A stretch of 55,453 bases of DNA from Bacillota bacterium (lineage in GTDB: Bacteria > Bacillota > DTU025 > MWDF01). This document shows, piece after piece, positions 27,565-31,325 of the stretch. The number at the start of each line of letters is the position of its first letter. The stretch's first letter is position 1. The notes under the pieces are model-generated. The model was given only the letters and a program-made list of their open reading frames with translations, made no database searches and was not told the origin of the DNA. A program made the translations under genes and the position numbers. The stretch lies in the NCBI GenBank assembly GCA_017994615.1, contig JAGOKM010000002.1:1-55453 (forward strand). The letters run 5' to 3'.

Positions 27565-27993
27565 CTATATTATCCCGTACCCCTTCATCCTCATCTCGAA
27601 CTGGGCTTCGTCCATGAAACCCTGCACAGCGCCCAGCTTGTTGCCTGCAGCGTCGTAGAACAGCGTCGTCGGTATCACCGAAATCCTGTTCTCGGCAGCT
27701 ATCTTCGGATATTCGTATACGTCTATCCTTATGAAGGTCACTTTTCCTCTGTATTTGTCGGCAAGCGCCACCAGGACTGGGTCTATGAGAACGCATGCCT
27801 CGCAATCCTCAGAGCCCAGCTTCACCACGTAAGGTATCCCCGCCCTGGACGCGTTCTCTATGTCTTCAGGCGTCCCGTTGGGCAGGGCACTCTGCGCATT
27901 CTTGGCCTTAGGTCTATAAAGCAGGCTGACAGCAAGGACGGTGGCGACCAGCACCACTGCCAGGACTATGAGCACCATTGTCGAACGCTTCAT
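27565..27993 (-). CDS. Membrane-anchored thioredoxin-like protein
   Basis: This 142-residue protein has an uncleaved-looking N-terminal membrane segment (about 5-26) and a thioredoxin domain with the active site CEAC at 64-67. A VIPTTLFYDAAG loop carries the cis-Pro. It should act on the outer face of the membrane and receive electrons from the CcdA-like protein encoded 12 bases upstream, as in DsbD-like or cytochrome-maturation pathways. Its clients are unknown. The ATG at 27993 has AGGAG upstream. Confidence 0.88.
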   Translation of the reverse strand: MKRSTMVLIVLAVVLVATVLAVSLLYRPKAKNAQSALPNGTPEDIENASRAGIPYVVKLGSEDCEACVLIDPVLVALADKYRGKVTFIRIDVYEYPKIAAENRISVIPTTLFYDAAGNKLGAVQGFMDEAQFEMRMKGYGII

Positions 27994-28005: not shown

Positions 28006-28701
28006 CTATATCAGTTTTAACATGTTCGTCGCAGCAAGCCAGGCGCCGGTGGCCATAAGGGCTATGCCCATGGCCAGGGTAAGCGCGCGCGAGTATTTGG
28101 TCAGCCCCGACCTGGCCAGCGCCTGAGGCGCCGTCCCTGCCGTTATGCCCGCTACAAGGACCGGAGCCCAATGACCGAGGGCATAAGCTATGGTGAGAAG
28201 CACCCCTCTTGAGCCTCCGGCAGTCGCAGAAGCCAGAGCGAGGACCGCCACAAGTACCGGCGTGGCGCACGGTGCGGACACCGTCGCGGTGACCAGCCCG
28301 AGCGCGAAAGCGCCCGCTGCGTGGACCCTGCCTTCCGCGCGTGGGGCTGCCGACGGCATCGGTATGCTGATTATTCCCGCTACGTTCATTCCCATCAACA
28401 GCACAAGAAGGCCAAGGGCGAGGCTGAATGCAGGGCCTGATAAAAGGAAACCGAGCCCCTGCGCCAGCGCCCCCAGGACGACGAAGGCGACCGTAAGCCC
28501 AAGGAAGAACGCCAAAGTGGATGCCAAGGCCCTCGCCCTCCCCATAGCCTTCGACCCTCCGACGTAACCTACGACTAGCGCTATTGCTGTCAGGGTACAA
28601 GGGGCAAGGGATGATATCAGCCCGGCCAGGAACGCCGCCGCGAAGCCGAACAGCGGCATTGAAAGCGCCTGCGTAAGGTTCTGGGCCAATTTGTCCAGCA
28701 T
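28006..28701 (-). CDS. ccdA: CcdA/DsbD-type transmembrane thiol-disulfide electron carrier
   Basis: This 231-residue membrane protein has about six hydrophobic segments and two family Cys motifs, SLAPCTL (Cys35) and SAPCATPVL (Cys145). It moves reducing equivalents from cytoplasmic thioredoxin to extracytoplasmic thiols. Its partner is the membrane-anchored thioredoxin immediately downstream. I chose the ATG at 28701, which follows CGGAGGG; a longer in-frame start 21 codons upstream has no site and would disrupt the family N-terminus. Confidence 0.9.
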   Translation of the reverse strand: MLDKLAQNLTQALSMPLFGFAAAFLAGLISSLAPCTLTAIALVVGYVGGSKAMGRARALASTLAFFLGLTVAFVVLGALAQGLGFLLSGPAFSLALGLLVLLMGMNVAGIISIPMPSAAPRAEGRVHAAGAFALGLVTATVSAPCATPVLVAVLALASATAGGSRGVLLTIAYALGHWAPVLVAGITAGTAPQALARSGLTKYSRALTLAMGIALMATGAWLAATNMLKLI

Positions 28702-28781
28702 GTTCCCTCCGAAGTGATAGGCAAAGCCTTCCGCGTTTCGCACTGTGGCAACGTAGACCGTCAATATGACAGATTATATTC

Positions 28782-28800
28782 TACCGCAAGGTCTGCGGTA
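28782..28800. promoter_or_regulatory. Inverted repeat in the divergent ccdA / selenoprotein-candidate gap
   Basis: TACCGCA and TGCGGTA form perfect 7-base arms around 5 bases. They lie midway between the divergent ccdA gene and the interrupted secreted protein. An operator shared by both is possible; the motif is not one I recognise. Confidence 0.3.
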
Positions 28801-28967
28801 TATACCCATCGGAAGGGCCGGCAGATTGTGAAGCGCAGTACATATCAACCGCTGCATAAAAGCCCCATTGTCCTGCAGAATATACATCTGGTGAAAACAG
28901 GAGAGGGAAGGGTCCACATTGAATCAAGAAACGCTGCCGATTGAAGGATGGGAGTGATGGGAAGGGA

Positions 28968-29471
28968 ATGAAGAGAACGACAGTCATCCTGGTCATAGCA
29001 ATCGCATTGTCTCTGTCCCTGGCGGCGATTCCTGCCGAGGCTGCGGACTGGAAGCTTACTGATGCGTCCGCTGCGGAGTACAAGAAGCTCGCCACTCCGG
29101 AGAAGGAGATCGCGGAGAAATGGCTGGCGACGCTGCCCGCCTCAGCTTACAAGGAGAGCTTCACCCAGCTCGTAATGGGGCTGGTCGTCTGGGTGAGCCG
29201 CGAACCCATAAGCTTCCTCGACTATGAGTTCGTCAAGCTGTTCAAGACGACCGGCGAGAAGGTCGACATCTACACGTTCAAAGCAGGGGACGCCAAGATG
29301 GTGACCGACATCTACTCGCCGCCGGTCATCCCGGGAGACCTCTGAGCGTGCAACTTCTATGATTGGTGGGTCGCCAATCTCAGCTACCCCGGAGCCAAGC
29401 CGCTGAAGTTCTGGTTCATAGCCGACCTCGAAGCAGAGGCCGCCCGCAGGGAGAAACTGGTCAAGAAGTAG
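28968..29471 (+). CDS. Secreted protein with in-frame TGA, candidate selenoprotein (or recently interrupted gene)
   Basis: From ATG 28968 a signal peptide (about 25 residues, ending IPAEA) precedes a mature domain of unknown family. Codon 126 is TGA (29343-29345). The same frame then continues for 41 sense codons, including ACNFYDWWVANL and KFWFIADLEAEAARREK, with unchanged codon preference, and ends at TAG 29471. The next gene starts 28 bases later, normal spacing for the operon. A hairpin of bacterial SECIS geometry lies at 29361-29379. If TGA encodes selenocysteine the motif is Sec-Ala-Cys, a plausible redox site in a secreted protein near CcdA and thioredoxin. Alternatives are a nonsense mutation from Trp or Cys, or a sequencing error. 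The ribosome site before 28968 is poorly spaced; a TTG at 28941 is possible. Confidence 0.6.
29361..29379 (+). promoter_or_regulatory. bSECIS-like hairpin downstream of the in-frame TGA
   Basis: GATTGG and CCAATC form a perfect 6-bp stem around TGGGTCG; a U-G and a G-C pair could extend it to 8 bp with a GGU loop. The loop starts 21-23 bases after the TGA and has G in its first two positions. That fits the described bacterial SECIS consensus (loop about 16-37 bases from the UGA, early G). Confidence 0.5.
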
Positions 29472-29498
29472 GGCTAAGATCGAAGGGAGGAAAAGGAA

Positions 29499-31325
29499 TT
29501 GAAAGGGAAGAGGATCCTGGTCATCCTGGCTGTGTGCATCATCGTCCTGGCACTCTCGTACGGCTCTATGGCGTGCACAAGCATAATCGTAGGAAAGAAG
29601 GCCTCTCTGACCGGGGAAGTGCTCCTGGGCCACAACGAGGACAACGGCGGGCGCCTTGTGATGCCCGTCTACCTTGTGGACCATGAGGTGCATTCAAAGG
29701 GTGAGATGCTGCAGCTGGAGAACAACACTGCGAGGATACCCCAGGCTGCGGAGACAGCCCGCTATTTCTGGACCGAGACGAGGGCGCCGCTTCCCGGAGC
29801 GTCCTTCAGCGATTTCATGTACAACGAGTACGGCGTAGTGGTAGCCAGCGACAGCTGCGCCTCCTCGAAGGTCGACACTTCGATAGCCGACCTGGTCGAC
29901 AACGGAATGGGCTATGCCATAAGGAAGATAATCGGAGAGCGCGCAAGGACGGCCCGCGAGGGGGTCGAGCTGGCCGCATGGTTGATAGAGACCTGGGGCT
30001 ACTTCGCCTCCGGACGATCGTACCAGATCTGCGACAAGGACGAAGGATGGGTCTGCCAGGTGGTAATGGGCAAGACGTTCGTCGCCCAGAGGGTGCCGGA
30101 CGATGAGGTGATGGTCATACCAAACCATTACGTCACCAGGAAAGTTGACTTCAACGACAAGGCGAACTTCGTGACCTCGAAGAACCTCGTGTCCTACGCG
30201 ATCGACAAAGGCTGGTACAAGCCGGCGGTTGCCGGTGACTACAGCGACTTCGACTTCGCCAAGACCTATCAGAAGGAGACCAGCTTCAGGGCCGCGAGCA
30301 ACACGTTCAGGCACAGATACGCGCATAAGATCCTGCACGGGCTCGACATACCCGCCGAGGCTGACCTGCCATTCTCGGTGAAGCCGGCGAAGAAAGTCGG
30401 CCTACAGGACATAATGAACGCCCTCAGCTACCATTACGAGGGCACCCCCGACGACCTGACGAACGGCTACAAGGACGGCTACCTGCACTTTACGACGATG
30501 AGGGTGCTGTGCACCTCTAGTACACAGGAGAGCTATGCAATCCAGATGAGGCAGGACCCGAACCTGACCGTAATGTGGAGGGCGAGCGGGCATCCCTGCA
30601 CCAGCCCGTACACCCCGTGGTACGGCGGTATAACGGCTATACCCAAGGAGTACCAGTTCATAGACCCCGTGTTGGGCAAGTACACGCATTTCGCGGCGCG
30701 TTCCGAAGATTACAGCTACGACCCTTCGAGGGCATGGTGGGCGTTCATAGACCTGCAGACCCTCGTCAACTTCAACTATGCCACCGACGGCATGAAGGTG
30801 AGGGAATGGAAGGCGAGGCTGCAGAACGAGTGGTTTGCCAACCAGAAGTCGTTCGAGTCGGCACTGATGAGCGTTTACAAGGTAGACAAGGCGAAGGCGC
30901 TTGCGATGATGACCGACTACAGCTCCAGGGCCGCCTTAAGGGCCATGAACGAGGCAAGGTCGCTGTATAACCAGATCCTGCGCACAAACGTGGACATAGT
31001 CACCGAAGAGATCGACCTTGCAAAGGGCGACGATCCCGTCAAGGTGGTGCTGTTCGGGTCCAAGGACGTGGACGTGGCCAAAGTCGACGTGCAGACCCTG
31101 GCGATAGGCGCCGATTACAGCAATCCTTCATCTTGGGCAAGGGCTAGGGACACCGTCGTATCCGACGTCAACTTGGACGGTTTCGCGGACGTCACATTCA
31201 CGGTCCTTACGAAGGATATCAGGTCGATCAACCCGTGCCTGATGAACCTCTGGGTGAGCGCCAAGTATGCAGGCGGCCCCACCCTTGCGGCGCAGGACAC
31301 AGTCAAGGTGGTCAAGTCGTTCTGA
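29499..31325 (+). CDS. C69-family dipeptidase, secreted Ntn-hydrolase
   Basis: This 608-residue protein begins with a signal-like hydrophobic segment ending at MACTSIIVGKKAS. Cys26 would become the N-terminal nucleophile after autocatalytic processing, as in C69 (PepD-type) peptidases. GHNEDNGGR, DSCASSKV and DLVDNGMGYAIR are conserved family stretches. It should hydrolyse short peptides outside the cytoplasm or at the membrane, feeding the amino acid transporters encoded beside it. An additional C-terminal region after about 530 looks like a beta-sandwich (VDVAKVDVQTLAIG, SDVNLDGFADVTFTV). The TTG start at 29499 has GGGAGG 8 bases upstream. Confidence 0.9.
   Translation: MKGKRILVILAVCIIVLALSYGSMACTSIIVGKKASLTGEVLLGHNEDNGGRLVMPVYLVDHEVHSKGEMLQLENNTARIPQAAETARYFWTETRAPLPGASFSDFMYNEYGVVVASDSCASSKVDTSIADLVDNGMGYAIRKIIGERARTAREGVELAAWLIETWGYFASGRSYQICDKDEGWVCQVVMGKTFVAQRVPDDEVMVIPNHYVTRKVDFNDKANFVTSKNLVSYAIDKGWYKPAVAGDYSDFDFAKTYQKETSFRAASNTFRHRYAHKILHGLDIPAEADLPFSVKPAKKVGLQDIMNALSYHYEGTPDDLTNGYKDGYLHFTTMRVLCTSSTQESYAIQMRQDPNLTVMWRASGHPCTSPYTPWYGGITAIPKEYQFIDPVLGKYTHFAARSEDYSYDPSRAWWAFIDLQTLVNFNYATDGMKVREWKARLQNEWFANQKSFESALMSVYKVDKAKALAMMTDYSSRAALRAMNEARSLYNQILRTNVDIVTEEIDLAKGDDPVKVVLFGSKDVDVAKVDVQTLAIGADYSNPSSWARARDTVVSDVNLDGFADVTFTVLTKDIRSINPCLMNLWVSAKYAGGPTLAAQDTVKVVKSF

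Follow-up and report, generated by a model that had tools for sequence, protein, structure and literature searches.

Is the in-frame TGA that interrupts the gene for a predicted exported protein in a Bacillota genome read as selenocysteine (Sec), and what kind of selenoprotein would such a gene encode? The gene lies on contig JAGOKM010000002.1 (assembly GCA_017994615.1), in a stretch of 55,453 nucleotides that was analyzed as a whole and is referred to here as the window. The original prediction, made from the letters of this DNA, had proposed a candidate selenoprotein with a hairpin of the bacterial SECIS type (bSECIS) just behind the TGA. Having compared the gene with its relatives and searched its genome for the Sec machinery, we consider it nearly certain that the gene encodes a real selenoprotein and highly probable that the product is exported; that both hold together is likely.

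An in-frame TGA in a gene for a predicted exported protein

The features of the gene are the following.

28968 to 29471, + strand: candidate selenoprotein gene of 167 aa, with read-through of the TGA placing Sec at position 126; stop codon TAG at 29469-29471
28968 to 29042, + strand: signal peptide, predicted Sec-type (MKRTTVILVIAIALSLSLAAIPAEA), from sequence reading and alignment
29343 to 29345, + strand: TGA codon for the putative Sec126, TGA in all three genomes that carry the gene
29346 to 29468, + strand: the 41 codons 3' of the TGA, on which purifying selection acts in this frame
29349 to 29351, + strand: TGC codon for Cys128, the sole cysteine of the protein, forming U-A-C with Sec126
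29361 to 29379, + strand: bSECIS-like hairpin of 8 pairs with loop GGU (29369-29371), identical in three genomes

The open reading frame at 28968-29471 (+) translates as MKRTTVILVIAIALSLSLAAIPAEAADWKL...PPVIPGDL-TGA-ACNFYDWWVANL...KLVKK-TAG, with exactly 41 sense codons between the TGA at codon 126 and the TAG, and re-reading it returned the same coordinates, codon count, and hairpin position as the original prediction. Position 28968 is taken as the start codon but is not proven, and the gene could instead begin with an in-frame TTG at 28941. Residues 1-25 have the look of a Sec-type signal peptide, whose character is retained in the alignment with the two relatives described below although its sequence is poorly conserved, and the mature protein would comprise 142 residues with one Sec and one Cys. 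Promoter and terminator scans of 28600-29600 gave no match.

The TGA and the codons behind it are conserved

We scanned 84,980 species genomes for peptide patterns, a method that needs exact short peptides and so reaches close relatives only. It returned two relatives, one in Firmicutes bacterium ADurb.Bin153 (L007) and one in Bacillota bacterium USDV_metabat.107 (L008), both placed in the genus to which the window's genome belongs. Their proteins are 77% (L007) and 74% (L008) identical to that of the window, and in both genes the TGA interrupts the frame at the corresponding codon and the 41 codons behind it are kept, with Sec-Ala-Cys placed in a stretch, PPVIPGDLUACNFYDWWVANL, that is invariant in the alignment of the three proteins. 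As the original prediction would have it, neither relative ends at this codon, and no Trp form occurs among the relatives found.

Compared with L007, the window gene shows 19 base changes in the 41 codons that follow the TGA (15 of them at third positions), which leave 13 codons synonymous and 3 replaced, while the 21 base changes between the window and L008 leave 15 codons synonymous and 4 replaced. When equal numbers of base changes were placed at random over the 41 codons in 20,000 runs, the mean number of replaced codons was 12.7 for L007 and 13.8 for L008, none of the 20,000 runs gave as few as observed, and a stop was gained in about 57-60% of runs. Conservation was lower in the remaining frames of either strand, and all of these bar one antisense frame contain stops. 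Together, the few replacements and the conserved frame show that the region past the TGA codes for protein in the same frame as the part before it.

All three sequences come from metagenome or draft assemblies, as might be expected if the TGA reflected a sequencing error, a frameshift, or a pseudogene. However, the three separately assembled genomes agree on the TGA at 74-77% protein identity, which also answers the concern that reads might reveal a different base, and we found no other lesion and strong purifying selection on both sides of the TGA. Since the TGA is kept inside a coding region in all three genomes, error or pseudogene is excluded in practice, and we give this explanation next to no credence.

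A bSECIS-like hairpin follows the TGA

The hairpin, GAUUGGUG-GGU-CGCCAAUC, starts 15 bases past the TGA and places 23 nt between the UGA and the loop; its fold has 8 pairs, including one G-U, and a GGU loop, in agreement with the 6-8 bp hairpin with an early G in its loop that the original prediction had placed at this distance. Published rules for bSECIS elements call for a loop of 3-9 nt whose first two bases include a G, a stem of 4-16 bp (PMC13188914), a distance of 16-37 nt from the UGA, and an MFE <= -7.5 (PMC13188914), and the hairpin falls within every one of these ranges (loop of 3 nt, 8 bp, 23 nt, and -8.3 kcal/mol for the hairpin alone). Since 97 of the 1628 TGAs in the window (6%) have a hairpin that obeys the same rules, and since its stability shows no excess over shuffled sequences (z -0.08 to -0.95), the hairpin alone is weak evidence.

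The pairing of the stem needs the codons GAT and AAT, which account for only 19% of Asp and 8% of Asn codons, respectively, in genes of the genus. Among degenerate codons whose amino acid is conserved, 5/5 in the hairpin stretch are identical in the three genomes compared to 36/93 elsewhere (Fisher p 0.011, a value that is indicative only, since the stretch was picked after the alignment was seen). The hairpin offers no covariation because its 19 bases never vary. A hairpin of the same kind is found in selD of the same genome, with a GGC loop at 17 nt and -7.4 kcal/mol for the hairpin alone.

If the TGA were a true stop, the gene would encode a protein of 125 residues, and the 41 codons would be open by chance or the remains of a decaying tail. 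In favor of this reading, TGA serves as a standard stop in these genomes and terminates the selenoprotein gene itself in both relatives, and the hairpin alone has a background of 6% of TGAs. On the other hand, the codons past the TGA encode a conserved protein segment in all three genomes and differ mostly by synonymous changes, and the in-frame TGA is itself conserved, which makes a true stop highly improbable.

The window's genome encodes the machinery for Sec insertion

The selA, selB, selC, and selD genes that insertion of Sec at this codon would call for, and for which the original prediction had advised a search, were all found. The window's genome encodes a SelB above the curated cut-off, as do both relatives; a selA-like frame, recognized by reading only, stands directly 5' of selB on L025; and selC scores 73.7 bits with the Rfam tRNA-Sec model and is called as tRNA-SeC by ARAGORN. 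The selD gene (L024:2-982, - strand, contig C52) has one in-frame TGA, read as SSKAG-U-AAKMG, so that SelD is itself a selenoprotein. The 3' part of selD also opens contig C75 (L025:1-435) with small differences, which suggests either variants from different strains or a break between contigs of the assembly.

The TGA might instead be read as another amino acid, either Trp or that of a near-cognate tRNA, or be subject to regulated partial read-through that yields two products and no Sec. In favor of such decoding, no Cys relatives were found, so that homology does not fix the identity of the residue. Against it stand the full Sec machinery with its selenoprotein SelD, the bSECIS-like hairpin with a codon bias towards pairing, and the placement of Sec near Cys, which fits the U-x-C pattern. 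Moreover, the protein uses TGG for its Trp residues, two of which lie no more than eight codons from the TGA; together with the TGA codons that end the relatives' genes, this gives no support to a general reassignment of TGA to Trp. We regard decoding without Sec as very unlikely. In the reading that we favor, SelB and selenocysteinyl-tRNA would decode UGA126 under the direction of the hairpin just 3' of it, both the machinery and the element being visible in the sequence.

A Sec-type formate dehydrogenase was also sought, and the FdhA-like genes of the three genomes (G000:C143, G001:C3, and G002:C2; L080-L085) have no in-frame TGA. Thus, the genus appears to retain the use of Sec despite having no formate dehydrogenase of the Sec type. 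The only selenoproteins noticed were SelD and the new protein, an incidental tally rather than the outcome of a systematic scan.

The family is restricted to one genus so far

In a profile search of 399 genomes of one phylum, the three members of the genus matched at E values below 1e-90, while the next-best matches had E values of 0.0016 and weaker and were partial, and those inspected proved to be unrelated frames. We rejected the weak matches outside the genus (L012 and L030-L038) as chance, among them a MoaB/MoeA-like frame (L030) and a thymidylate-kinase-like frame (L033); the others were partial, low-scoring, or stop-ridden. The gene is present in 3/3 genomes of the genus and in 0/9 other genomes of the class, which comprises 12 genomes. 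Searches of PDB and of phage, plasmid, and IMG/VR sequences returned no relative, and PHROGs gave one weak match only (E 0.34). The family has so far been found in three uncultured bacteria of one genus.

A catalogue from 2026 counts 119 families or subfamilies of prokaryotic selenoproteins (PMC13188914). The new protein resembles the catalogued selenoproteins that depend on SelB, tRNA-Sec, and a bSECIS (PMC13188914) in its in-frame UGA followed 16-37 nt downstream by a hairpin whose loop starts with G, and it shares with catalogued bacterial selenoproteins the presence of sel genes in the genome and of Sec near Cys. Unlike many catalogued families, which have a Pfam or NCBIfam model, it matches none. 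Selenoproteins with UxC or UGC motifs include UGC-containing TlpA-like proteins, DUF1573, and thioredoxin-like Sec.2 (PMC13188914); these also have Sec two residues before Cys, but theirs are recognized domains, none of which was detected in the new protein. TsoA (NF045695, motif LULAXC) is similar in length (model of 144 positions) and likewise has Leu-Sec with Ala and Cys nearby, but the order of the motif differs, LULAxC in TsoA versus LUAC here. Membership in TsoA was rejected, since the NF045695 model (cut-off 170 bits) gave no match even at E<=10 in the three genomes.

With no match in the family libraries used or in the 119-family catalogue, the suggestion that the family could be undescribed is supported. 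Within those libraries and that catalogue, the gene would represent an undescribed selenoprotein family, and its product would be a bacterial selenoprotein like others in kind.

Neighboring genes and a possible redox function

The genes around the selenoprotein gene in the window are the following.

27565 to 27993, - strand: thioredoxin-like protein, membrane-anchored or exported, CEAC motif, divergent; its orthologue is the divergent neighbor in both relatives
28006 to 28764, - strand: CcdA/DsbD-TM-type electron transporter, adjacent here; a single copy lies elsewhere in the two relatives
29499 to 31325, + strand: C69-family dipeptidase, exported, the next gene, 27 nt downstream and likely in one operon; in the same place in both relatives

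The thioredoxin and C69 neighbors are kept in 3/3 genomes, and the thioredoxin-like protein has CEAC and an N-terminal hydrophobic segment in all three. CcdA stands between the selenoprotein gene and the thioredoxin gene in the window's genome only; each genome has one CcdA, which in both relatives is on another contig. In L007, a polyferredoxin-like (4Fe-4S, NapH-like) gene lies by the thioredoxin gene in place of CcdA. The C69 dipeptidase of the window is extended at its C-terminus by ~110 residues, a long form that it shares with dipeptidases from other families of the phylum (L050, L051, and L053) at 43-45% identity, with no selenoprotein partner detected there. More broadly, of the genomes with more distant C69 orthologues (L050-L055), those within the profile sample, which include the members of the order, showed no relative of the selenoprotein.

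Since Sec and Cys lie so close together, a reversible Se-S bond is the simplest expectation, and Sec126 and Cys128 most likely form such a bond, judging by the motif. The predicted signal peptide would export the product, which could then act as an extracytoplasmic selenol/thiol reductase or redox carrier of the selenenylsulfide type. We lean somewhat toward a thiol redox role for the U-x-C pair. On the basis of the conserved thioredoxin neighbor and the adjacency of CcdA here, we propose that the membrane-anchored thioredoxin (CEAC) may recharge the selenoprotein and that CcdA may feed the thioredoxin, an assignment of the reductant that we hold tentatively. The selenoprotein may also act together with the C69 dipeptidase, with which it is probably co-transcribed; this link, which comes from the neighborhood, is doubtful.

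The main competing view of function accepts a real selenoprotein but has Sec126 and Cys128 bind a metal or metalloid for sensing, detoxification, or delivery rather than cycle an Se-S bond. Several selenoprotein families in the catalogue are metal-binding or organometallic (PMC13188914). In addition, two AlphaFold runs (mean pLDDT 41.5 and 51.9) gave helices only; a thioredoxin fold is not indicated by these low-confidence models, which do not decide between the two roles. No thioredoxin-like domain was matched in Pfam or NCBIfam, though a relation at the level of the fold may exist. On the other hand, U and C are the only two ligand residues of such a type in the protein, and the conserved anchored thioredoxin neighbor fits redox cycling better. 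We consider a metal-binding role rather unlikely.

A possible Sec-only family

The surprising part of this family is its possible Sec-only nature. We found three Sec forms and no Cys form, with coverage of 399 genomes of one phylum by profile, the whole class of 12, and the peptide-pattern scan for close relatives. Counting against our case, no Cys homologue proves an exchange of Sec and Cys, the sign on which standard discovery methods rely, and there are only three related sequences; a Cys homologue is a criterion of discovery and not part of the definition of a selenoprotein. It is possible, though we would not wager on it, that the family exists in Sec form only, with no Cys ancestor or relative, either because Sec is strictly required or because the protein was a selenoprotein from its origin in a single genus.

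The discovery of selenoproteins in bacteria depends on Cys relatives. The authors of one recent method state that it may miss selenoproteins without Cys homologues and that every selenoprotein known today appears to have such homologues (PMC12013277). Should there truly be no Cys relatives, the family would be a counter-example to that statement (PMC12013277), and, if Sec-only, it would escape any search that starts from Cys homologues. The gene was recognized by reading the raw sequence, and its product, a small protein predicted to be exported and bearing a single Sec-Ala-Cys pair, is well suited to direct redox tests. Altogether, these findings suggest that lineage-specific selenoproteins may sit in annotation as truncated hypothetical proteins.
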